The position numbers were made by a program, and so were the translations under genes. The notes under the pieces were generated by a model, which searched no databases, was not told the origin of the DNA, and was given only the letters and a program-made list of their open reading frames with translations. From Actinocatenispora rupis (lineage in GTDB: Bacteria; Actinomycetota; Actinomycetes; Mycobacteriales; Micromonosporaceae), in assembly GCF_016861975.1 (NCBI RefSeq), contig NZ_BOMB01000032.1, positions 62,001-126,000 on the forward strand: a DNA stretch of 64,000 nt, in the 5' to 3' direction. Each line of letters starts with the position of its first letter. Within the stretch, counting starts at the first letter, position 1. Below, one piece after another: positions 29,834-42,454 of the stretch.

Positions 29834-30136
29834 GGCGGGCTCCCGTCCGGCGGCGTGGTCACCATGCCCCGCGGGGTGCGGAGCGCGGCCCGCCGCTTGC
29901 GACCGTACCGAAGGCGCAGGTCACGGCGGGCCGCCACGATCCTAGACAACACCGCCGACCGCCGGCCGCGCCGGGCGCCGCACCGTCCGGGACCGTACCG
30001 GCACGGCTGAGCGGTTCGTACCCGGCGGACGGGTCGCGCGAAGAAATGTCAGGGGCGCCCAATATGGTGCTGCGCATTGTGACGGCCCGCCGGTACGGCG
30101 CGGCCGGGCATCTGCTGCGATCTCGGAGGTCTACGG
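29834..30136. other. divergent intergenic region before the MoxR-VWA operon
   Basis: 303 bases between the isochorismatase-like gene and the DUF4132 gene, with no ORF of protein-like composition. An A+T-richer patch (about 30040-30082, around CCCAATATGG) is the likeliest promoter for the five-gene operon, but I could not assign -35/-10 boxes with confidence. GGAGG at 30125-30129 is the ribosome binding site of the first gene. Confidence 0.5.
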
Positions 30137-31009
30137 GTGGGTTGGTTGTCGGCGGGCGACGGGTACGAGGTCGCTCTGGTGGAGGGCAGGGTGGCGGCGC
30201 GGGCGACCGCCGGTCGTGCCGCGGGGCGGCAGCTGAAGTCGCTGCCGCGGGCGTTGCGGGACCATCCCGAGGTCGACCGGCTGCGCCGGTTCGCCGCCTG
30301 GCTGGACCGGCACACCACCGCGTGCGTCGCGCAGGTCGACACCTGGATGGTGTCCTCGCTGCCGGTGCCGACGCTGCTGCTGGCTCGGTTGTGGCGGGAC
30401 GAGGCGTGGCAGTGCGCGCTGCGCGACCTGGTGGTCGTCGGCGACGAGCCGGACGAGGTCGGGTTCCTGCGCGACGCCACCGACTCCGGCGCGCTGCGCG
30501 TGGTGACCCTGGACGGCGAGACGGTCCGCATCGCCCCGCGTACGGTGACGCTGCCGCATCCGGTGCTGCTGGCCGACCTGGACGAGCTGCGCGAGTTCGC
30601 GGCCGAGCTGGGTGTCACCCAACGCGTCGAGCAGATCCACCGGGCGACCTGGCGCCGGGCGGAGGACACCCCCGACAAGGTGTGGTCGGTGAGCGAGTTC
30701 GCCGGCGGCAAGTTCCCCTCCCGGTACGTGCTGGCCGCTCGCGCCGCGTCGCTGGGATACCGCGTGTCGGGCGGGTACGCGACCTGCCGGGTCCGCGACG
30801 GCGCCCGGGTGGTCGAGGCGTCGACCTGGATCGGCGAGCCGTACTACTGGGACGACAGCGACGCCGAGACCGGCGACCTGACCTGGAACGACGAGGACGG
30901 CCGGTCGTTGCCGCTGCGTTCGGTGGGTCCGGTGGCGTGGTCGGAGGGCATGCGGATGGCCGCCGCGCTGTACGCGGGACGTCAGGTCGAGGAAGGGAAG
31001 GGCGCGTGA
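30137..31009 (+). CDS. stand-alone DUF4132 protein, first gene of the MoxR-VWA operon
   Basis: A 290-residue protein. Its core (about 150-250: ELGVTQRVEQIHRATWRRAE, KVWSVSEFAGGKFPSRYVLA) matches DUF4132, the domain that in E. coli YehI/MolR sits behind an N-terminal WGR domain. Here no WGR is present and the domain is a separate protein. The N-terminal 140 residues are helical and unique. Cytoplasmic, function unknown. The GTG at 30137 has GGAGG at good spacing; the stop overlaps the next start as GTGA. Co-expression with the AAA+ ATPase implies a partner or substrate-recognition role. Confidence 0.8.
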   Translation: MGWLSAGDGYEVALVEGRVAARATAGRAAGRQLKSLPRALRDHPEVDRLRRFAAWLDRHTTACVAQVDTWMVSSLPVPTLLLARLWRDEAWQCALRDLVVVGDEPDEVGFLRDATDSGALRVVTLDGETVRIAPRTVTLPHPVLLADLDELREFAAELGVTQRVEQIHRATWRRAEDTPDKVWSVSEFAGGKFPSRYVLAARAASLGYRVSGGYATCRVRDGARVVEASTWIGEPYYWDDSDAETGDLTWNDEDGRSLPLRSVGPVAWSEGMRMAAALYAGRQVEEGKGA

Positions 31010-34000
31010 GCGGCGCGGATCTGTTGGCGGCGGGCGCGGTCCTGCCGCTGGGCACCACGGACGGCGGCGAGCAGGCGGTGCCGCTGACCGTGCGCAGCTA
31101 CCGGCATCCCGCCCTCGACGACCGGATCGTCGTACGGCTGGTCGCCGAGGAGCTGGGCGCGGCCGAGGACCAGGCCGTCGGGTTCCTGGGGCTCACGCCC
31201 GACGCCGAACCCGAGGTGGTCGGGCTGGGCCAGCGGCAGGCGCTCGGCTTCCCGGAGTGGGTGCTGGTGCACCACCCGGCCGACGGGCACCACGCGCTGG
31301 CCGTCGTACCGGAGCTGGAGCGGATCGCGCGGCAGGCCAGGTCCAAGCCGGGCAACGCGCTGGACGCGTACCAGGCGCTGGCGGCGGAGCTGGCGGTGGC
31401 GGTGCCGCACTTCCTGCCGACGTTCTTCGAGCAGGCCGGCCGGGTGTTCCTCGGCGTGGAGAACGCGACGTACGCGGCGCGCATGTTCACCCGGGCCCGC
31501 ACCGTCGAGGCCGAGTTCGGGCTGCCGCTGGACGCCGACCGGCTCGACGCGGTGTTCCTGGAGTTCGCGCTCGCCGGTGCGCTGCCCGTCAAGACCCTCT
31601 CCGCGTACGCGAAGGATCTGGCGCGGCGGCTGCCCGCCGCGGAGGCGTTCCAGCGGTTCCGGCGACTCTGCGTGCGGCGTACCGCGGGCGGGTTGGCGCC
31701 GTCCACGCAGACCGCGGCCGACCTGCGCCGGATGGCGCGCGCCGCGGGCGCCGACGTCGAGGCGGAGGAGCGCGCCTACCTGCGCGACCTGCTCGCGCTG
31801 CCGGGCACCTTGCGCGCGCCGTACGGCTGGTGGAAGGCGCACCGCACGGCGCTCGTCGCGCTGGCCCGGCAGGACCCGGCCGTCCGCGGCACGCTGCTGA
31901 CGGTGATGCCGTCCGGCGACACGGAACTGGTGCGGCTGTGGCTGGAGATCCTGACCGACTCCGGCGCCACCGCGGGCCTCACCGACCCGACCCGGCCCGC
32001 CGAGGAACGCCCCGGCGACGGTTCCGCCGGCTGGCTGGAACGCTTCCTGTCGTTCCGCGGCTACTGGCGGGCCGAGCGGATGCCGGCGCTGCTGCACCTC
32101 GTCGAGCAGATGGCCGACGTACTGCGGGCGGAGCTGGCGGCGTCCGGCCGGACGCTGAAGTCGGTCGGCAGCGACGTCGACCTGCTGGACCTCCTGCTGA
32201 CGCACCAGGTGCCGGTCGCCGACACGGGCGGCGGGCTCGCGCTGGAGCAGTGGGCGAGGGGCGAGGGTCAGCGCGACCTGCGCGCGCTGCACGCCGACGG
32301 GCGGTTCCAGGACTCGTTCCGCAGCGCCGCCGACTCGTTCGGCGACGACGCCGACGCGCGGCGCGCCATCCGGATGCTGGCCGCCTCGCCGGGCGGTCGC
32401 CCGATGCTCGCCGACTGGGTACGCCGGGTGGCGAGCCGGTCCGCGGCCGAGGGGCTGCCGCAACTGCCGGGCATGCTGTACCGGCTGTCCTGGCTGCCGG
32501 GTGAGGCGCTGGCGCTCGCCGAGGACGAGGTGCGCGCGGTCGCCGCCACCGACCTGGCGCCCGTCCTCGCCCGTACGCTGCGGGCCGGGCTGCTGGACGA
32601 ACTGTCCTGGCCGGCGTTCGAGCAGGCGGCGACGGAACTGGTGGCGCGCAACGGCGTCACCGAGCTGGTCGTCGCCGACGCCTGGCCGTACCTGGTGGTC
32701 GCGGGGCCGACGCAGGTGCGGGTGATCGACGCCGACGGCACCGTGCTCCGCCACGACCTGCGGACCCCCGACACCGTCCGCAACCGCTGGAACCACGCCG
32801 GTTTCCACTACGTCGACGGCGCCCTCCTCGTCTACTGGAACGACGACTCCGGCCGGACCGTCGGCTACTGGCACACCGCCGCCGACCGCCCGCAGCCGCT
32901 GAACGGCGACGCCCACACCCGCGGCATCACCATGTACTACTCGGGCCCCGGCCGGCTCGCGTCGACGCTGCCGCTGCCCGGCGGCGGCCGTACCACCGGG
33001 GCGGGGGTGCTGCACCGGGGCGACGCGGCGGTGCCGGACGAGGCCGCGGTGATCGGCGACGGCACCGCGTACTGGGTGCTCGACCCCGAGCAGCACCACC
33101 AGTGGCGGGAGTACGACCCGGTCACCGGTGCGCGGGGACGGCACAGCCTGCCCGGGTTCCTCGCCGACGCACTGCGTGACGCACCGGCCGGCAGCACGTT
33201 CCAGTCCGGCTGGCAGCTGCCGGTGCGGACCGGCGACGGCGGGTCGATCGTCGGCTGGCGGGTGGTCAGGCTTCCCGACGGCGCGCTGCGCGGCGAGGAC
33301 CCGGCCGGCCACCGGATCACCCTGGCGCCGCGGCGGGGCACCCCGTGCGGCGCACTGCCGATCCCGGGCGCCGACCGCCCCCTCGGCGTGTACGAGCGCG
33401 GCCCGTGGGAGATCGGCCTGGTGGACGCCGACGGGGTGGTCGTCGCGACCGCCAAGACCGACAACCCGCCCGGCGAGTTCGCCGCGGGCACGCCGATCCT
33501 GCCGCCCGAGCGGTACTGGCACTGCCTGCGTCCGCGCGACCCGCAGGGTTCCCTGGCGCTGCGCGGCATCGACCACGCCACCACGACGGCGCTGCTGACC
33601 GCGGCCGGCAGCGTACCGGCGGAGCAGTTGCCGGCGGCGATCCGTACGCTGCTGCCGCAGGTGAGCGACGACGCCCTGCTGGCCGGCATCGCCGGGGTGG
33701 CACGGATCGCGGCCCGGCAGCAGGCGGCCCTCGACGCGACGGCCAAGCGGCTCACCGCCGCGCTGGCCGGCGAGGAACCGCACGCGCCGGCCGGCCCGCC
33801 GCGGGTCCTGCCGCTGGGCACGCTCAGCGGCCTCATCGACGACCAGTGGCGCTACAACGACGACCGGGGCATCGTCGCCCGACTGACCGTGATCGGTCAG
33901 GAAGCCGTTGCGGCACAACAGGAACGGCCACAGCTGGCTGCCGGGCGTACCCATCTCGACGGGTCGGACCTGCCGTGGGGTGCCGTCGAGCTGGCGACGA

Positions 34001-35826
34001 TCGTGGACGGGGCAGCGGCGATCGCGTACCGTGCGGCGGCGCCGACCACCGCGCAACCGGACCGGGAGACGCTGCTCGACCTGCTGCGCGACGTCGACGC
34101 GCCGGGGCTGGCGTCCACCGCGGACTCCGGCCGGTGGCGCTGGGTCTCCGCGCACCTCGACCAGTCGTACCTGGAGGACCGGCAGCACGTCGCGTGGTCC
34201 GGAGTGCTGCGACTGCCCGACGGCGCGTTCGTCGTGTTCCTCGGGCACATGCACAGCGGCACCCGGTACACGTTCGACGGGCTGTTCCACGATCCGACCG
34301 GCCGGTTCGAGCTCCCCCCGCCGTACGAGGTGGCGTCGTGCACCCCGGTCGGTGCACCGCGCGCGTCCGGCTGGCTGACGGCGCTGCGGACCGAGCTGGC
34401 CGAGCGCGGGCCGGCGCCGTGGTTCCCGGCGGCGGCGGACCAGTTCGCCGAGCTGACGGGCGTCACCCCGACCGTGGCCCGGCTCGTGGTCGCCGGCATG
34501 CCCAACGTCGGCGAGTACCGTCGCACGTTCCTGCCGACCGCGGCGCGCACCCTGCTGGAGGTCAAGCAGAACGACGCGGTCGTGGCCAAGGACCAGCTGC
34601 GCCGGCTGGAACCCGACGTGCGGCGGCAGATCGTCGGCGCGCTGCTGCCGGCGGACCCGGCCCGGCTGTGGACCGACGGTCCGGACGTGGCCGCCGCGGC
34701 GGCGGTCTGGAACGAGAAGGTCGGCCGCCGCCCCGCGATCCCGGAGGCGTTGCTGCACGACGCGACCCGGTCGGTGCACACCGGATGGGAGCTGCACCAC
34801 GCGCTGCCCGCGCTGCTCGACCCGGCCGCCGACCCGCACCTGAGCCGAGACCTCGGGTGGCGGATCCACGGCGACCGGGCCGTACCGGTGGATCCGCACG
34901 CGGCCGGGTTCACCGCGACGATCCTGGTCAGTACGGTGACGCTGCTGGCCTGGCTGGCGCACCGGTTGCCGGCCGGCGACCCGATGCGGGCGGCGCTGCC
35001 CCGGGCGCTGTCCGCCGTACGGGACCGGCTCGCCAACCCGGAGCTGCTGCTCGACCTGCGCCGCTACATCAGCCTCCCGTCGTTCCGGCAGGCGGCCGGC
35101 GCTCCCACCGAGACCGGCACGGGCTTCGAACGCTACGGCGCCGTCATCCTCGCCACCCACGACAACCAGCCCGCACCGGCCCTGCGTACGGCACTGCTCG
35201 ACGCCTCCGGCGACGACCCGTACCTGGCGGCGCTGCGCGGCGTGGCCGGCGAGTTCGAGGAGGAGATCGCGCTGCGGCTCGCCGGCGATCCGCGGTTCGC
35301 CGCGCTGCTGGCCGATCCGGGCGCACCGGCGGCCGGCGAGCCCGGCGCCGACGGCACGTGGTGGCCGCAGGACCCGACCCGCTCGGTACCGGACCTGGTC
35401 GCCGAGGTGGCGGCCGAGCACGGGATCGGCGCCGACGCCGCCGCGGTGTACCTGATGGTGTTGGCGATGCCCGACCCGGTCGACCGCAACACGGCCCGGT
35501 GGACCGGCTGGAAACCCGCCCGGCTGAAGGCGGCCCGTGCCGAGCTGGCCGGCACCGACCTGGTGGTGGAGGCGACGCGTACCCGGGCCGGCCGGTCGCT
35601 GTTCCTGCCCGGCGGCTGGACCCCGCTGCACGCCCCGCTGCTCCCGACGGAGCAGTGGAAACTCCCCCTCTACGACGGCCTCCTGCGCGGCCCGCACCCG
35701 CGGCTCGGGATCGTCGCACCCACCGAGCCGGTCGCCGACCTGTACCGGCGGGCCTGGCAACGGCTGCGCGACGGTGACGTGCCCCGGTTCGAGGAACTGC
35801 CGGCGAAACGCGCCCGGCGCCGCTGA
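31006..35826 (+). CDS. 1606-residue protein of unknown function in the MoxR-VWA operon
   Basis: The largest gene of the window. I recognise no named domain. Residues 1-550 are mostly helical repeats (SYRHPALDDRIVVRLVAEEL, AAYARMFTRARTVEAEFGLP-like text); about 555-830 is rich in Trp, Tyr, Gly and short strands (DAWPYLVVAGPTQVRVIDAD, ALLVYWNDDSGRTVGYWHTA), suggesting a beta-propeller; 890-1050 has similar strand-rich text; the last 500 are helical with a basic tail KRARRR. No signal peptide, membrane helix, Walker or protease motif. The GTG at 31006 overlaps the previous stop and follows AAGGGAAGGG. It is probably the scaffold or client protein of the MoxR ATPase. Confidence 0.8.
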   Translation: MSGADLLAAGAVLPLGTTDGGEQAVPLTVRSYRHPALDDRIVVRLVAEELGAAEDQAVGFLGLTPDAEPEVVGLGQRQALGFPEWVLVHHPADGHHALAVVPELERIARQARSKPGNALDAYQALAAELAVAVPHFLPTFFEQAGRVFLGVENATYAARMFTRARTVEAEFGLPLDADRLDAVFLEFALAGALPVKTLSAYAKDLARRLPAAEAFQRFRRLCVRRTAGGLAPSTQTAADLRRMARAAGADVEAEERAYLRDLLALPGTLRAPYGWWKAHRTALVALARQDPAVRGTLLTVMPSGDTELVRLWLEILTDSGATAGLTDPTRPAEERPGDGSAGWLERFLSFRGYWRAERMPALLHLVEQMADVLRAELAASGRTLKSVGSDVDLLDLLLTHQVPVADTGGGLALEQWARGEGQRDLRALHADGRFQDSFRSAADSFGDDADARRAIRMLAASPGGRPMLADWVRRVASRSAAEGLPQLPGMLYRLSWLPGEALALAEDEVRAVAATDLAPVLARTLRAGLLDELSWPAFEQAATELVARNGVTELVVADAWPYLVVAGPTQVRVIDADGTVLRHDLRTPDTVRNRWNHAGFHYVDGALLVYWNDDSGRTVGYWHTAADRPQPLNGDAHTRGITMYYSGPGRLASTLPLPGGGRTTGAGVLHRGDAAVPDEAAVIGDGTAYWVLDPEQHHQWREYDPVTGARGRHSLPGFLADALRDAPAGSTFQSGWQLPVRTGDGGSIVGWRVVRLPDGALRGEDPAGHRITLAPRRGTPCGALPIPGADRPLGVYERGPWEIGLVDADGVVVATAKTDNPPGEFAAGTPILPPERYWHCLRPRDPQGSLALRGIDHATTTALLTAAGSVPAEQLPAAIRTLLPQVSDDALLAGIAGVARIAARQQAALDATAKRLTAALAGEEPHAPAGPPRVLPLGTLSGLIDDQWRYNDDRGIVARLTVIGQEAVAAQQERPQLAAGRTHLDGSDLPWGAVELATIVDGAAAIAYRAAAPTTAQPDRETLLDLLRDVDAPGLASTADSGRWRWVSAHLDQSYLEDRQHVAWSGVLRLPDGAFVVFLGHMHSGTRYTFDGLFHDPTGRFELPPPYEVASCTPVGAPRASGWLTALRTELAERGPAPWFPAAADQFAELTGVTPTVARLVVAGMPNVGEYRRTFLPTAARTLLEVKQNDAVVAKDQLRRLEPDVRRQIVGALLPADPARLWTDGPDVAAAAAVWNEKVGRRPAIPEALLHDATRSVHTGWELHHALPALLDPAADPHLSRDLGWRIHGDRAVPVDPHAAGFTATILVSTVTLLAWLAHRLPAGDPMRAALPRALSAVRDRLANPELLLDLRRYISLPSFRQAAGAPTETGTGFERYGAVILATHDNQPAPALRTALLDASGDDPYLAALRGVAGEFEEEIALRLAGDPRFAALLADPGAPAAGEPGADGTWWPQDPTRSVPDLVAEVAAEHGIGADAAAVYLMVLAMPDPVDRNTARWTGWKPARLKAARAELAGTDLVVEATRTRAGRSLFLPGGWTPLHAPLLPTEQWKLPLYDGLLRGPHPRLGIVAPTEPVADLYRRAWQRLRDGDVPRFEELPAKRARRR

Positions 35827-35904
35827 CCCCGCACGCTCCCGGGCCGCGCCGTCACGACGGCGGCGCGGCCCCTCCCCCACCACCCCGACCACGAGGACCT
35901 CGCC

Positions 35905-37074
35905 ATGACCCTGACCGACCAGGCGACCGCTCCGGCCGCCGTCCAGATGCTGCCCGCCGAGCAGCGCCACGCCACCGAGCTGGCCTTCCTCGCCGCGTAC
36001 GACGAGGGGCCGCGGCCGCCCGGCTGGGCGTTGACGCCACGCGCCGTGGTGACGTTCATCTGCGGCAGCGACGGCGAACCGCTGACACTGCCCGGGAAGC
36101 GCGACGACACCGGCGGGCTGCCGGACAGCCTGCCGATCACGGCCAAGTTCATCGGCGAGCGTGCGCTGGTGGAGCGCTGCGTCGTCACCCTCGCCGGCGA
36201 GCGCGGCCTGCTGCTCGTCGGCGAGCCCGGTACCGCGAAGTCGATGCTGTCGGAGCTGTTGTCCGCCGCGGTCTGCGGCACCAGCGCGCTGACCGTGCAG
36301 GGCACCGCCGGCACCACCGAGGACGCCTTCCGGTACGGCTGGAACTACGCGCTGCTGCTCGCCCAGGGGCCGACCCGGCAGGCGCTGGTCGACTCGCCCG
36401 TACTGACCGCCATGCGTACCGGGCGGGTCGCGCGGGTCGAGGAGATCACCCGCTGCCTGCCGGAGGTACAGGACGCGCTCGTGTCGATCCTGTCCGACCG
36501 GCGCGTCAACGTCCCGGAGCTGGCCGGCACCGACGACGACCAGGTCGCGGCGACCGCCGGGTTCACCGTCATCGCCACCGCGAACCTGCGCGACCGCGGC
36601 GTGTCGGAGATGTCCGCCGCGCTCAAGCGACGCTTCAACTTCGAAACCGTCGAGCCGATCGCCGACGCGGACGCCGAAACCACCCTGGTACGACGCCAGG
36701 CCACCACGGCGGTGCAGCGCGCCGGCGCCGCGTACGGCGTGGACGACGCGGTCCTCGACGCGCTCGTCACCGTCTTCCGCGACCTGCGCTCCGGCCGCAC
36801 CGCCGAGGGCTGGGACGTCGAACGCCCCGGCACGGTCATGTCCACCGCGGAGGCCGTCCAGGTGGCCGCGTCGCTCGGCCTCGCCACGGCGTACCTGAGC
36901 GGCGGCGACGCGCTGGACCTCGTACCGGGGCACCTGCTCGGCGTGGTGCGCAAGGACGACCCCGCCGACCACGAACGCCTCCTCGGGTACTGGGACGGTG
37001 CGGTGCGCCGCCGCGCCGCGGACGGCTCGACCCTGTGGCGTCGCCTGTGGGACCTGCGGGAGCAGGTGCGGTGA
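35905..37074 (+). CDS. MoxR-type AAA+ ATPase
   Basis: A 389-residue AAA+ ATPase. Walker A is VGEPGTAKS (about 105-112), the Walker B region reads GRVARVEEITRC (EE in the place of the usual DE), sensor 1 is TVIATANLRDRG, and ALKRRF is the arginine-finger segment; a helical lid follows. It would form a hexameric, ATP-driven remodeller acting with the VWA protein encoded next, as in other MoxR-VWA pairs where the VWA domain binds clients through a metal site. 78 bases separate it from the previous gene; its stop overlaps the next start (GTGA, 37071-37074). Confidence 0.92.
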   Translation: MTLTDQATAPAAVQMLPAEQRHATELAFLAAYDEGPRPPGWALTPRAVVTFICGSDGEPLTLPGKRDDTGGLPDSLPITAKFIGERALVERCVVTLAGERGLLLVGEPGTAKSMLSELLSAAVCGTSALTVQGTAGTTEDAFRYGWNYALLLAQGPTRQALVDSPVLTAMRTGRVARVEEITRCLPEVQDALVSILSDRRVNVPELAGTDDDQVAATAGFTVIATANLRDRGVSEMSAALKRRFNFETVEPIADADAETTLVRRQATTAVQRAGAAYGVDDAVLDALVTVFRDLRSGRTAEGWDVERPGTVMSTAEAVQVAASLGLATAYLSGGDALDLVPGHLLGVVRKDDPADHERLLGYWDGAVRRRAADGSTLWRRLWDLREQVR

Positions 37075-40000
37075 GCGTCGACCAGACCGCACCGACCGCC
37101 CTCGCCGCGCCGCCCGACACCGATCCGCGGGACGCCGTCGCAGCGCTGGGCGACAGGACCGGGCCGTACCTGCTGGGGGTGCGGCACCACAGCCCGGCGC
37201 TGGCCGTCGTACTGCCGGCGCTGCTCGACGCGGCCGGCGTCGACGTGGTGTGCGTCGAGCTGCCCACCGACTTCCAGCGGTGGCTGCCGCACCTGGCCGA
37301 TCCGGAGCTGCACGCGCCGGTCGCGCTGGCCGGCGCCCGCCCGGACGGGCCGCTCGGCTTCTACCCGTTCGCCGACTTCTCCCCGGAACTCGCGGCGATC
37401 CGCTGGGCGCGGCAGCGCGACGTCCCGGTGGTCTGCTGCGACCTGCCGATGGCCGATCCCGGCTGGGCGGCCGGCGACGACGCGCCGCGGTCCGGCGCCG
37501 AGACAGGCCGCGGGTTCGCCGACGCGCTCACCGCCGCCGGTACCGGCCGGGACGGCGACGACATGTGGGACCGCGCGGTCGAGGTGCTCGCCCCCGGCTG
37601 CCCGCCCGACGCCGTACGCCGGGCCGCGCTCGGGGTCGGCTGGGCGCTGCGCCAGGACGCCCTCGCCCGGGGCGGCATCTCGCGTACGGACCTGGCCCGG
37701 GAAGCGCACATGCGTACGGTGATCGGCAATGCGGGCGCCGGCGGGCGGCGGGTCGCCGCGGTGGTCGGCGCGTTCCACGCGCCGGCCCTGGCCGAGCCGG
37801 GACCTGCCACCGAAGCCGGGAGCGCGCCGGACACCGTGGTGACCTCGCTCGTGCCGTACGGGTTCGACCTGTTGGACTCCCGGTCCGGGTACCCGGCCGG
37901 GATCCGCGATCCGCGCTGGCAGCAGGCCGTGCACGCCGCCGGCGGCGACCCCGACCTGCTGCGGCAGGCGGCCGCGCGCGCCGTCACCGAACTCTGCCGC
38001 GAACTGCGCGCCGCCGGGCACCCGGCCGGCACCGGAGAGGCCGTCGAGACGGTACGGCTGGCCGACGATCTCGCCCGGCTGCGCGGCCTGCCCGCGCCCG
38101 GCCGCGGCGAACTGCTGGAGGCGGTGACGACCGTCCTCGGCCAGGGCGAGCTGCTCGGCCGCGGCCGGGCCGTGGCCCGCGCGCTCGGCACCGTACTGGT
38201 CGGCGCCGAGCGTGGCCGCATCGCCCCCGGTACGCCCCGGTCCGGGCTCGGTCCCGCGGTGGAGGCCGAGCTGGCCGCGCTGCGGTTGCCGGGCCCCGGC
38301 GACACGGACGCCAAGGACCTGCGGCTCGACCCGTTCCGGTCGGATCTGGACCGGCGGCGGGAGATCCTGCTGCGGCGCCTGCGGGTCTGCGGCGTCGGCT
38401 ACGGCGAACCGGTCGAGGTGGCCGGCGTCGGCGACGGGTCCGCGGTCGGCACCCGGTGGCGGCTCACCTGGACCCCGGCCGTACCGGCGCTGCTGGACCT
38501 GGCGGGCGTGCGGGGCGTGACCGCCGCGCAGGCGGCCGCGGGCACGCTGCGCGAGACGTTTCGGCGGGAGACCGCCGACGGCGGCGCGACCTGCGCCCAG
38601 ATCCTCGACGAGCTGCGGTCCGCGGCCGAGTGCGACCTGCCCGAGCTGGTCGCCACCCGGCTGTCCGACGCGGCCGAGGTACTGCCGTCCGCCGCCACCC
38701 TGCCCGAACTCGTACAGGCGCTGGACCTGCTGGACACGCTGAGCCGCGGGCACCTGCCCGGCGCCGGACCGGACGAACGCGCCCGCGCCACCGACCTGTC
38801 GCACCTCCTGCTGGAGACCGCGGTCCGCGCCCTTCCCGGCCTCGCCGGTACGGACCGGGCCGAGGACGCGCGGGCGCTCGTCGCCCTCGCCGTACGGGCC
38901 GGGGACCAGCACCGCGGGCTGCGCATCGACCAGGCGCTCGGCCACCTCACGACGGCGGGATCGCCGCTGGCGCAGGGCGCCGCGCTGGCCGCGCGTACGC
39001 TGCTCGACCTGGACCCCACCGACACCCTCGGTACCCGGTGCGCGGGGTGGGTCGACGCGGCCGGCGGGCCCGACGGGCGGCGCCGGCTCACCGGCCTCCT
39101 GTCGGGTGTACTCACCGCCGCCGCCCCGCTGCTCGAAACGGCACCCGCCGCCCTCGACCCGCTGCTCGACCGGATCGACGCGCTGAGCGACCGGGCGTTC
39201 CTCGACCGGCTCCCGGCTCTGCGCGGCGGGTTCGACACGCTCGACCCGGCCGGCCGGCGCCGGATGCTTGACGTCGTCACCGGTCGTACGGGGGACCGCC
39301 TCGACCTCGCCCTGTCCGTACCGCCGGCGGTGCTGGCCCGGTGGACCGCGGCGGACGCGGCCGGATCCGCCGCGCTGCACCGACTCGGGCCGGTGCCACC
39401 CGCCGGATCCGGCGCCGCGGACGGCGGTGCCGGCGGCGCGCCCGACGCGGACCGCGACGCGACCCGTACCCGGGAGACGAGGGGCGGGCTCGGTGCACCG
39501 GACCGGTGGCGGCTGATCCTGGGCCAGGAGAAGGAGAAGCTCCCCGTCGACGCCCGCGGCTACGCGCACGCCCTCGACGAGCTGTACGGCGCGGGCCGCG
39601 GCGAGGGCAGCCTCGACCTGCGGGCCGACGGCGACCGGGGCGGGCAGGACACGGCGTTCCCCACCGCCCGCGACTGGGCCGACCAGCTCGACGCGCTGTT
39701 CGGGGCCGACGTCCGCGAGGAGGTGCTGGGCCGCGCTGCCGACGCCGGCCGGCACGACGTCCTCACCGAGCTGGATCCCGGGTCGGTCCGGCCGTCGATC
39801 GAGCTGCTCACCTCCGTACTGTCGCTCGCCGGCGGCATGCCCGAGGAGCGGCTCGCCAAGCTCCGCCCGCTGGTACGACGGCTGGTCGAGGAGCTGACCC
39901 GGCAGTTGGCGACCCGGCTGCGGCCGGCGCTGTCCGGGCTCGCCACCCCGCGGCCCACCCGGCGTCCCGGCGGCCGCCTCGACCTCCCGCGTACGGTGCG

Positions 40001-40595
40001 CGCCAACCTGATGCACACCCGGCGCATCGACGGCCGTACGGTGGTCGTCCCGGAGCGTCCGGTGTTCACCACCCGCGCACACCGCGCGTCGGACTGGCGA
40101 CTGGTCCTGGTGGTCGACGTGTCCGGGTCGATGGAGGCGTCCGTCATCTGGTCCGCCCTGACCGCCGCCGTACTCGGTGGCGTGCCCAGCCTGTCGACGC
40201 ACTTCCTCGCCTTCTCCACCCGGGTGATCGACCTGACCGACCAGGTCAGCGACCCGCTGTCACTGCTGCTGGAGGTACGCGTCGGCGGCGGCACCCATAT
40301 CGCCGCGGGGCTCGCGCACGCGCGGTCGCTGGTGACCGTGCCGAGCCGTACCCTCGTCGTGGTCGTCAGCGACTTCGAGGAGGGCTACCCGCTGGGCGGC
40401 CTGCTCAACGAGGTCCGTGCACTGGCGTCGTCCGGGGTCCGGCTGATGGGCTGCGCGGCCCTCGACGACACCGGCACCCCGCGCTACTCGGTACCCGTCG
40501 CGCAGCAGCTCGTCGCCGCCGGCATGCCGGTGGCCGCCCTCAGCCCGCTCGCCCTGGCCCAGTGGGTCGGCGACTGCCTCCGCGGAGAACGATGA
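37071..40595 (+). CDS. DUF5682-VWA fusion protein
   Basis: 1174 residues that join two proteins usually encoded apart. About 1-775 is DUF5682 (GPYLLGVRHHSPALAVVLPA, VCVELPTDFQRWLPHL; a VGAFHAPAL strand near 230). A Gly/Ala/Asp-rich linker (775-803) leads to a CoxE-like region starting DRWRLILGQEKEKL. The VWA domain proper spans about 1000-1174 with an intact MIDAS: VVDVSGSMEAS (Asp near 1016), GGGTHIAAG and VVSDFEEG. It should bind Mg2+ and a client or the MoxR ring. Both the start (GTGA) and end (ATGA) overlap neighbours. In E. coli the equivalents YehM and YehP are separate; the fusion implies a direct 1:1 complex. Confidence 0.88.
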   Translation: MSVDQTAPTALAAPPDTDPRDAVAALGDRTGPYLLGVRHHSPALAVVLPALLDAAGVDVVCVELPTDFQRWLPHLADPELHAPVALAGARPDGPLGFYPFADFSPELAAIRWARQRDVPVVCCDLPMADPGWAAGDDAPRSGAETGRGFADALTAAGTGRDGDDMWDRAVEVLAPGCPPDAVRRAALGVGWALRQDALARGGISRTDLAREAHMRTVIGNAGAGGRRVAAVVGAFHAPALAEPGPATEAGSAPDTVVTSLVPYGFDLLDSRSGYPAGIRDPRWQQAVHAAGGDPDLLRQAAARAVTELCRELRAAGHPAGTGEAVETVRLADDLARLRGLPAPGRGELLEAVTTVLGQGELLGRGRAVARALGTVLVGAERGRIAPGTPRSGLGPAVEAELAALRLPGPGDTDAKDLRLDPFRSDLDRRREILLRRLRVCGVGYGEPVEVAGVGDGSAVGTRWRLTWTPAVPALLDLAGVRGVTAAQAAAGTLRETFRRETADGGATCAQILDELRSAAECDLPELVATRLSDAAEVLPSAATLPELVQALDLLDTLSRGHLPGAGPDERARATDLSHLLLETAVRALPGLAGTDRAEDARALVALAVRAGDQHRGLRIDQALGHLTTAGSPLAQGAALAARTLLDLDPTDTLGTRCAGWVDAAGGPDGRRRLTGLLSGVLTAAAPLLETAPAALDPLLDRIDALSDRAFLDRLPALRGGFDTLDPAGRRRMLDVVTGRTGDRLDLALSVPPAVLARWTAADAAGSAALHRLGPVPPAGSGAADGGAGGAPDADRDATRTRETRGGLGAPDRWRLILGQEKEKLPVDARGYAHALDELYGAGRGEGSLDLRADGDRGGQDTAFPTARDWADQLDALFGADVREEVLGRAADAGRHDVLTELDPGSVRPSIELLTSVLSLAGGMPEERLAKLRPLVRRLVEELTRQLATRLRPALSGLATPRPTRRPGGRLDLPRTVRANLMHTRRIDGRTVVVPERPVFTTRAHRASDWRLVLVVDVSGSMEASVIWSALTAAVLGGVPSLSTHFLAFSTRVIDLTDQVSDPLSLLLEVRVGGGTHIAAGLAHARSLVTVPSRTLVVVVSDFEEGYPLGGLLNEVRALASSGVRLMGCAALDDTGTPRYSVPVAQQLVAAGMPVAALSPLALAQWVGDCLRGER

Positions 40596-42454
40596 TGACC
40601 CTCCCGACCCTGCCGCCGGTGGCGCCCGACGTCCTGGCCGAGGCCGTGGAGGGCCTCAGCCCGCGGCTGCGCAAGAAACTCGACACCACCATCGAGCGGT
40701 ACGCCACCGCACCGGTCCTCGCCGACGGCGACACCGTCCGCATCGAGTGCGGCGAGGACACCGTGGTCACGCTGACGCCCGGCGCGTCCGGCGCGGTCAC
40801 CACCGCCGACCAGGCCACGTGTACGTGCCTGCTGGCGCCGCGCTGCCTGCACCGCACTGCCGTACTGGGCGCCTGCCCGGTCGCCGACCCCGACACGACG
40901 GCACCCGCCGCCGGCGACGCGCCGCGGCCAGACACGATGGCACCCGCCGCCGGCGAGGCGCCGCGGCCGGACACCACGGCCGACCACGTCGAGGCCGGCG
41001 ACGCACCGACCGCAACGGTCGGGCCCACCGCGGCGCAGGTGGCCGCGGCGGAGAGCCTGTGGTCGGCGGCCGCCGCGGTGCTCGCCGCGGGCGTACCCTC
41101 CGCCGGCGCGGTACCGCAGGCGGAGCTGCTGCGCGCCGCGCACACCGCACGGTTGGCCGGCCTGCACCGGGCGGAGGCGGCGGCGCTGCGGGTGGTACGC
41201 GGCCTGCGCGCGGCCCGCGGCCGGGACGACACCCACCGGCTCGCCGACCTGGTCGCCGCGCTGCGCGAGCTGCTGTTCACCGCCACCCTGCTGGCCCGGT
41301 CCGACCCGGACCCCGCGCTGATCGGCACCGCGCGCCGGGCGTACCGGCAGGGAAGCAGTCTGCGGGTGCACGGTGTCTGCCGCGAACCGGTCCTCACCGC
41401 CACCGGGTACGCCGGGGTCGTCACGCACGTCGTCACCGACGACGGCGAGTGGTACTCCGTGGCGGACGTCAAGCCGGGTGGACCGGGACGTGCCCGGGGC
41501 GCCGCGACCGCGCCCGTCGCCATCGGCGCGCCGGCGCTGACGCACGCGCAACTCGCCCGCGGCGGCCTGCTGATCACCGGGGCGACCATCTCACCCGAGG
41601 GTCGGCTGGGCGCGGGCCGGGGCGTCAGAGCGACGCCGCTCGCGGCGAGTGCCTGGTCGGCCGGACCGCTGGCGGCGCTGTTCGCCCGGCCGGTCGCCGA
41701 CGTGGTCGCCGACCGGCTCGGCGCCGACACCGGTGGCGACCCGGAGCAGGCGGACCGCGCCGCCGCCGAGCTGGTCGGCTGCGAGGTGGAGATCCTCGGC
41801 GCCGGACGCGACCACCTCCTCGCCCGGCCGGCCGACGGGTCGCCGGGCCCGCTGATCCGGTTGGTGCCGGCCAACGACAACGCGGATCTGGCCCACCTGA
41901 CCAACTTCCGCCAACTGGCCGCCAGACCGGGCCTGCACCTGCGGGTGGTCGGCCGGCTGGATCCCGAGCGCGCGGCTACGATTCGACCGCTCGCCGTGGC
42001 ACCGGTCCCCGGCAGCGACACGACCGTCCGGCTGCCCGACGAGTGGCAGGGCCACGCCGACCTCGGCTACGACCAGCTCCAGGGCGCGCACCTGCCACCA
42101 CCGACCGACAGCACACCCCTCCCCGGGTACGCCGAGGTCGACGCGCTCGCCGACTCCCCGCTGTGGCAGGTACGTCACCTGGTCGAGTTGGCCGTGACCG
42201 GCGGCCGGCGCGCCGTGGCGGAGTCCGGACGACGCGGCCGGGAGACGTACGGGCCGCTCCGGCGGGCCGGGTTCGCCGGTGCCGCGGACCTCGCGGCCGG
42301 GCTGACCGCCGAGGCGGACCGGCGCGGCCGCGACGTGTTCGGCGTCCTCACCGACCCCGGCCCCGACCGGTACGCGGCGGCGTGGCTGGCCGCGGCCGTC
42401 CACCTCACCTGGACCGAACGCGCCCTGATCCGCTCCGCCTGGCAACCCGAGTAG
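40592..42454 (+). CDS. SWIM zinc-finger protein
   Basis: A 620-residue protein. A SWIM zinc finger, CTCLLAPRCLH (C-x-C-x5-C-x-H), sits at about residues 77-87, preceded by VVTLTPGASGAVTTADQATC. A low-complexity linker follows, with a 13-residue tandem repeat (DTxAPAAGxAPRP), then helical and strand-rich regions that I cannot name, ending in a Trp-containing helix. SWIM fingers bind DNA or protein. Equivalent to E. coli YehQ in domain content and operon position. The ATG at 40592 overlaps the previous stop (ATGA). Last gene of the operon; 167 bases follow before the next gene. Confidence 0.88.
   Translation: MMTLPTLPPVAPDVLAEAVEGLSPRLRKKLDTTIERYATAPVLADGDTVRIECGEDTVVTLTPGASGAVTTADQATCTCLLAPRCLHRTAVLGACPVADPDTTAPAAGDAPRPDTMAPAAGEAPRPDTTADHVEAGDAPTATVGPTAAQVAAAESLWSAAAAVLAAGVPSAGAVPQAELLRAAHTARLAGLHRAEAAALRVVRGLRAARGRDDTHRLADLVAALRELLFTATLLARSDPDPALIGTARRAYRQGSSLRVHGVCREPVLTATGYAGVVTHVVTDDGEWYSVADVKPGGPGRARGAATAPVAIGAPALTHAQLARGGLLITGATISPEGRLGAGRGVRATPLAASAWSAGPLAALFARPVADVVADRLGADTGGDPEQADRAAAELVGCEVEILGAGRDHLLARPADGSPGPLIRLVPANDNADLAHLTNFRQLAARPGLHLRVVGRLDPERAATIRPLAVAPVPGSDTTVRLPDEWQGHADLGYDQLQGAHLPPPTDSTPLPGYAEVDALADSPLWQVRHLVELAVTGGRRAVAESGRRGRETYGPLRRAGFAGAADLAAGLTAEADRRGRDVFGVLTDPGPDRYAAAWLAAAVHLTWTERALIRSAWQPE
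40892..40969 (+). repeat. two 39-base tandem repeats inside the SWIM gene
   Basis: Two near-identical 39-base units (40892-40930 and 40931-40969), in frame, encode DTTAPAAGDAPRP and DTMAPAAGEAPRP; a third unit starts and decays. This is a disordered Pro/Ala linker that can change length by slippage. Confidence 0.8.

Follow-up and report, generated by a model that had tools for sequence, protein, structure and literature searches.

A conserved five-gene MoxR-VWA operon of Actinocatenispora rupis with a predicted DNA-damage promoter and a putative hydrolase domain

A 64,000-nucleotide stretch of the actinobacterium Actinocatenispora rupis (contig NZ_BOMB01000032.1, positions 62,001 to 126,000; hereafter the window) carries a five-gene operon that combines a MoxR AAA+ ATPase and a von Willebrand factor A (VWA) domain with DUF4132, DUF5682 and SWIM zinc-finger proteins. 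The locus raises the question of what such a set does, the related yeh (molR) genes of Escherichia coli having, to our knowledge, no settled role. We suggest, with evenly balanced confidence, that the operon encodes a mobile, DNA-damage-inducible remodelling machine of the YehL type that includes a putative hydrolase. The comparisons described below show that the unit is conserved, that its motor, metal-ion-dependent adhesion site (MIDAS) and zinc-finger residues are intact, and that a predicted PafBC-type site lies upstream, and the unit should be widened upstream to about 30046 so as to cover that promoter site. The features of the operon, all on the forward strand, are these:

30046–30068, + strand: predicted PafBC / RecA-NDp promoter site, ATGTCAGGG-N8-TATGGT, 91 bp upstream of the gene 1 GTG; the TTGTCAGTG block is part of this predicted PafBC-type site
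30137–31009, + strand: gene 1 (P0001), 290 residues, DUF4132 (Pfam, 94.1 bits; cut-off 27)
31006–35826, + strand: gene 2 (P0002), 1606 residues
32668–33456, + strand: beta-propeller domain in P0002, about residues 555–817 (AlphaFold pLDDT 90.5)
35905–37074, + strand: gene 3 (P0003), YehL-type MoxR AAA+ ATPase, 389 residues (AAA_5, 127.9 bits)
36220–36243, + strand: Walker A of P0003, kept across the aligned rows
37071–40595, + strand: gene 4 (P0004), DUF5682 (YehM-like) fused to VWA (YehP-like), 1174 residues
37128–37820, + strand: N-terminal alpha/beta domain of DUF5682, with H39, H40, E63, D124 and H236; TIKI/ChaN/Ere-like
39906–40568, + strand: VWA domain of P0004 (VWA_CoxE), with a complete MIDAS (D1016, S1018, S1020, T1075, D1101)
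40592–42454, + strand: gene 5 (P0005), YehQ-like SWIM zinc-finger protein, 620 residues
40820–40852, + strand: SWIM motif CxCx5CxH in P0005, residues 77–87

An earlier note on this DNA had described five same-strand genes whose first, third and fourth junctions are overlaps of GTGA, GTGA and ATGA and whose second is a gap of 78 bases, and we confirm both the coordinates and the junctions; Pfam and hhalign likewise bear out its family assignments, and BLASTP and hhalign agree with the kinship it saw to the E. coli yehI/L/M/P/Q set. In a BLASTP comparison with the E. coli K-12 proteins of NC_000913, P0003 and YehL share 44% identity over 379 columns, and P0004, which scores 684.6 bits for DUF5682 and 220.3 bits for VWA_CoxE in Pfam, is 28.5% identical to YehM and 39.8% identical to YehP. 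With hhalign, P0001 aligns to positions 932–1207 of a YehI-like profile, the C-terminal end of YehI/MolR, at a probability of 70.6%, and P0005 matches a YehQ-like profile of only five sequences at a probability of 94.8% over 332 columns. The SWIM motif of P0005 is plain by eye, its Pfam score being 12.7 bits, under the cut-off of 19.6. Pfam found no WGR domain in the five operon proteins, in contrast to E. coli YehF and to the YehI-like protein of a Streptomyces locus (L138).

To sample relatives, eight aligned MoxR sequences were used to scan genome contigs, which gave matches to at least 592 stretches, at least 581 of them relatives, and the best 80 loci were kept, the sampling being by MoxR similarity alone. 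All five families occur in the same order in 67 of the 80, with a gene split over frames in some (e.g., L053, L062 and L090), and 11 of the remaining 13 are cut by a contig end; the exceptions are L089, where gene 2 is repeated in tandem and the stretch examined shows no DUF4132, and L110. Because so many loci chosen by MoxR hold all five genes in order, the association is, as judged from these genomes, far beyond chance. Single open reading frames (ORFs) with at least 80% coverage were matched for gene 1 in 73 of the 80 loci, for gene 2 in 71, for gene 3 in 80, for gene 4 in 65 and for gene 5 in 60, and relative to the window genes 2 and 5 show the weakest conservation (BLASTP). With the window included, the Walker A, EE pair, sensor N and RR of the MoxR protein are invariant in all 81 aligned rows and the five MIDAS residues in all 66; of the 61 rows aligned for SWIM, 60 have all four ligands and the last is a gap. 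The genes thus stay together and, in these alignments, neither the ATPase nor the MIDAS residues are lost, two points on which the earlier note had made its proposal depend, and its picture of an actinomycete version of the yeh set is upheld. The other exception, L110, on a contig of Kitasatospora aureofaciens, has a MoxR gene, but neither gene 2 nor DUF5682-VWA nor SWIM could be recognised in the stretch examined; it may be a remnant or another layout.

For the role of the operon, the earlier note had offered metal-cofactor or conflict functions; the predicted promoter makes DNA damage the first role to consider. The consensus reported for RecA-independent DNA-damage promoters is tTGTCRgtg-8 nt-TannnT (PMC5656591), from which the site in the window departs by two mismatches, and within the window alone that site is not above chance (four sites with up to three mismatches, against 5.6 expected). 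Related loci were therefore surveyed, 72 in all, this being the 80 minus nine in which the gene 1 alignment was unusable or too little upstream sequence was present, plus the window; the best sense-strand site in the 300 bp upstream of gene 1 was counted, and 1372 equally long windows taken from these loci served as controls. The motif was found without mismatch in 35 loci, with up to one mismatch in 52, up to two in 68 and up to three in 71, against 0, 0, 4 and 55 of the control windows, the loci not being independent because 53 of the 72 are from Streptomyces. At up to two mismatches it is present in 67 of the 71 related loci (all but L061, L077, L078 and L087), which span ten genera: Streptomyces, Nonomuraea, Kitasatospora, Wenjunlia, Rhizohabitans, Actinocorallia, Plantactinospora, Umezawaea, Saccharothrix and Catenulispora. 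Across these 67 sites the consensus positions hold while the spacer positions vary, and the distance from motif to assumed start has a median of 94 bp (91 bp in the window). A PafBC-type promoter site before the operon is well supported by this comparison, and the operon is very probably DNA-damage-inducible. A LexA box, CGAACnnnnGTTCG, was also considered upstream of gene 1 and was rejected, because its presence at up to two mismatches in 14 of the 72 loci, against eight in one shuffle each, shows no clear enrichment.

The genome itself has adjacent PafB- and PafC-like genes (WYL-WCX and HTH_PafC-WYL-WCX; HTH_PafC, 141.6 bits), and the pattern TGTCRGNG-N8-TANNNT occurs at 27 sites in its 7.83 Mb, the site in the window among them, against two for the reversed pattern. 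Twenty of the 27 were taken, together with the longest ORF starting soon after each, and at least six of these 20 precede repair or helicase genes (UvrB, UvrA, UvrC, a UvrD-type helicase, MgsA/RarA and a SNF2 helicase by Pfam). These six come from nine ORFs picked for Pfam after the translations had been viewed, so that the repair-gene rate among the nine is biased; the other three are a PAC2-family gene, a DUF5937-HTH protein and one without a Pfam family. In a separate observation, the motif lies only 28–30 nt before the starts of uvrB, uvrC, the uvrD-type helicase, rarA and the SNF2 gene (L208, L210, L218, L223 and L226), and distances this short suggest that the damage-induced transcripts at these loci may be leaderless. 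A von Willebrand protein, MSMEG_5511, is reported to be lower in a pafBC deletion (PMC5656591).

Further searches identified at least four layouts of YehL-type cassettes in actinobacteria, to which we assign letters of our own:

Layout A: SWIM-DUF5691-MoxR-DUF5682-VWA
Layout B: the E. coli type
Layout C: the operon of the window
Layout D: VWA-MoxR-divergent DUF5682, also present in this genome as its second YehL-type locus (L137; G000:C21, about 328980–334660)

The SWIM gene of layout A is present in 95 of 101 Streptomyces genomes, and all 30 Streptomyces loci returned for it (L148–L177) have an exact PafBC motif 27–30 nt before the matched start, together with a divergent site with one mismatch; in L140, the one layout A Streptomyces genome whose neighbours were examined, the MoxR side is divergent from the SWIM gene. 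The mismatch of the divergent site is itself a conserved deviation, its -10 element having CA instead of the consensus TA in 30 of 30 loci. An exact motif also precedes seven of nine Streptomyces YehI-like genes (not L179 or L186), the layout being B in L138, the one with neighbours examined, and shorter Streptomyces DUF4132 genes have the motif with at most one mismatch near the ORF opening in 14 of 16 cases (not L187 or L194). The YehI-like protein of L138 contains a WGR domain, which in poly(ADP-ribose) polymerases binds DNA nicks. No PafBC-type site at up to two mismatches was found at the layout D locus of this genome. According to PMC9380542, the PafBC motif was apparently not conserved in S. 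venezuelae by an initial search and a Streptomyces response remains to be shown, and the exact motif in every one of the 30 layout A loci returned bears on that question.

Because the operon carries a predicted actinobacterial DNA-damage promoter, these results suggest that it and its E. coli relatives serve in the DNA-damage response. In E. coli, a LexA-like site lies directly upstream of yehF, which we take to be the old molR start. The literature lists molR as LexA-regulated (PMC11039860, PMC4576408) and names it among SOS genes (PMC3978071), and Deinococcus genes with DUF4132 and WGR domains are reported to be strongly upregulated on DdrO depletion (PMC8533742). The operon on a Deinococcus plasmid has only a weak site resembling the radiation/desiccation response motif (5 of 17 mismatches), and directly upstream of the Rhizobium operon no LexA-type site was found. 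The E. coli literature, the actinobacterial motif and, more loosely, Deinococcus suggest that YehL-type cassettes are under different damage regulators in different lineages. A damage-type site here, a LexA-regulated molR and DdrO-linked genes turn 'function unknown' into a concrete test, of damage sensitivity and of the clearance of protein from DNA.

What the machine might do to a client is suggested by the N-terminal domain of DUF5682, whose His-Glu-Asp-His signature is kept across the four layouts sampled and whose fold weakly matches HopBA1, a TIKI-type protein. The site of the TIKI superfamily is described as a 2His/2Glu set (PMC6254334); the His-Glu pair and the later His are kept in DUF5682, and a second Glu was not identified. 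No ChaN or Ere structure was among the structure matches listed for DUF5682, an absence that excludes nothing. On these residues we lean slightly towards DUF5682 being catalytic.

In the large second protein, P0002, no Pfam family exceeds its cut-off, and neither BLASTP against the K-12 proteins nor hhalign found an E. coli relative (YehI-like, 0.2%; YehQ-like, 0.1%), as the earlier note had held for this 1606-residue protein. Homology to YehI-like, YehQ-like, DUF5691 and SWIM-first profiles was rejected at hhalign probabilities below 1%, some of these profiles being thin (two and four sequences for DUF5691, five for YehQ). Foldseek with the AlphaFold model returned, among the matches listed, mostly propellers (best E 1.5e-3). 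Solved structures were also searched with two alignment profiles, neither of which found a convincing match (best E 1.3 and 1.5).

Taken together, we suggest the following mechanism. When single-stranded DNA builds up, PafBC would turn the operon on; the MoxR hexamer and the VWA arm of gene 4 would then pull on protein clients, by analogy with NorQ-NorD or RavA-ViaA. The client may also be cleaved or otherwise modified by the TIKI-like DUF5682 hydrolase, because this hydrolase-like domain is fused to the VWA. The SWIM finger and the DUF4132 protein would recruit the complex to damaged DNA or to the proteins on it, a work site suggested by SWIM, by DUF4132 and by the WGR partners seen in sister cassettes, and the large propeller protein may be a scaffold or a client-selecting subunit. 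The likely task would be the dismantling or processing of proteins stuck on damaged DNA, and that the machine acts on nucleoprotein or repair proteins is plausible, although our confidence falls a little short of even.

The distribution of the operon bears on the first of the rival explanations. Gene 2 is present in 7 of 198 genomes of the phylum (counting its own genome and G038, a marginal fragment match), in 12 of 61 relatives (own genome, the marginal G038 and a partial match, G301, counted) and in none of three other genomes of the same genus. When flanking ORFs (at least 120 residues, with high third-position GC, within about 4 kb) were compared by BLASTP at E <= 1e-20, no family was common to more than 6 of the 57 loci having both ends. 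Gene 4 is found at about 66% identity on five Streptomyces plasmid records of 0.85–1.27 Mb, and the two of these that were examined both show the full five-gene set (the first also by BLASTP), while in two genomes looked at gene 2 forms a tandem array, of three copies in Actinoplanes (L089; G351:C26) and of four in Actinocorallia (L043; G352:C5). This patchy occurrence, together with unshared flanks, plasmid carriage and tandem gene 2, indicates that the operon, as far as genome comparison can tell, behaves as a discrete accessory cassette in which gene 2 is able to duplicate. A phage origin was rejected, as 0 of 56 pattern matches in viral contigs encode a relative, and PHROG matches contribute no functional information. 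The sole match in the phage collection, MT835988 (L019), is an UNVERIFIED 14 kb faecal contig labelled 'Bacteriophage sp.' that carries MoxR, DUF5682 and VWA and may be a misfiled bacterial fragment. At L026 (5415–9680), a stand-alone gene 2 relative, to which the BLASTP match skips the middle part, has a PafBC-type site directly upstream. Patchy distribution, the PafBC-type site, the probable hydrolase site, the beta-propeller and the motif-bearing sister cassettes are all additions to the earlier note.

The strongest alternative is a conflict system set off by damage, anti-phage or cell-suicide, in which single-stranded DNA arising from phage or plasmid attack would activate PafBC and the complex would attack proteins of the host or the invader, gene 2 being a diversifying recognition part. 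The sporadic presence of gene 2 even among close relatives, the inconstant neighbours of the operon and its carriage on plasmids would suit such a role, as would the fast divergence of genes 2 and 5 and the arrays of three or four gene 2 copies. Against this, the anti-phage models of PADLOC gave no match better than E 0.054 (11.0 bits), the VWA stops at residue 1166 of 1174 with no effector or propeller domain C-terminal to it (Pfam), and the near-universal SWIM gene of the sister cassette in the Streptomyces sampled suits a housekeeping role. We therefore consider a conflict system unlikely, although it deserves to be kept in view.

More improbable is a chaperone with a general stress role in protein quality control, co-induced with the damage response but without action at DNA. 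The PafBC regulon is reported to include oxidative-stress genes (PMC8223512) and the PAC2-family gene mentioned above follows another PafBC-type site in this genome, but the sister cassettes examined repeatedly have SWIM, WGR or DUF4132 proteins as companions. The least probable of the alternatives, by our estimate, is a factor that would mature a repair or stress enzyme by inserting or exchanging its metal cofactor, as NorQ-NorD does for nitric oxide reductase, which the old molybdate name molR would fit, as would the CoxE type of the VWA and the reported action of MoxR-VWA pairs of known role (PMC9976466, PMC13036017), but which leaves the fused hydrolase-like domain and the DNA-damage promoter unexplained and finds no flanking family of any kind, the families being unclassified, widely conserved.

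Returning to a damage-inducible machine that remodels proteins, one may speculate, and we regard this wider step as doubtful, that YehL-type cassettes are a hitherto unrecognised arm of the bacterial DNA-damage response, ATP-driven unfoldase-hydrolase machines that free damaged DNA of protein and that came separately under LexA in E. coli, DdrO in Deinococcus and PafBC in actinobacteria, with gene 2 as an actinomycete-specific client selector. If true, this would be a bacterial counterpart of crosslink repair by an AAA+ protein plus a protease.

NorQ-NorD and RavA-ViaA resemble the operon in that a MoxR AAA+ protein is partnered with a VWA protein. Their clients are metabolic enzymes, and we know of no SWIM, DUF4132 or TIKI-like part in either. 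In the literature searched, DUF5682 was not found and DUF4132 is rarely mentioned; no functional account of the yeh genes was found as judged by titles and the beginnings of abstracts, and no account of a MoxR-VWA-SWIM set was found among the matches listed. The MoxR-vWA ternary conflict systems (PMC7159879) share MoxR and vWA with the operon and, in one subclass, a propeller-bearing partner, but in that subclass the vWA protein itself always bears a propeller, and other subclasses have effector domains after the vWA, whereas the VWA of the operon is C-terminal. The terms 'YehL', 'MolR', 'WGR' and 'SWIM' are absent from the main text of that report (Kaur et al. 2020), and P0003 scores 21.2 bits against the bpMoxR-type PF20030, under its cut-off of 27.

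TIKI hydrolases (Ere esterases, RRSP, HopBA1 and ChaN) have, like DUF5682, a His-(about 24)-Glu arrangement near early strand ends and a later His; unlike them, the domain of the operon sits inside a DUF5682-VWA fusion. Layout A, which is found in Deinococcus, Rhizobium, Hymenobacter, Nocardia and Nonomuraea, shares MoxR, DUF5682, VWA and a SWIM protein with the operon, but in it DUF5691 replaces gene 2 and DUF4132, and DUF5682 and VWA are separate genes. In the E. coli yehF-yehH-yehI-yehK-yehL-yehM-yehP-yehQ (molR) region the five families stand in one same-strand row as they do here, from which the operon differs in its fused DUF5682-VWA, its short and separate DUF4132, its added gene 2, the lack of WGR in its five proteins and the PafBC type of its site. 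The two sets are also alike in apparent control by DNA damage, through LexA in E. coli according to the literature and through a predicted PafBC-type site in A. rupis.

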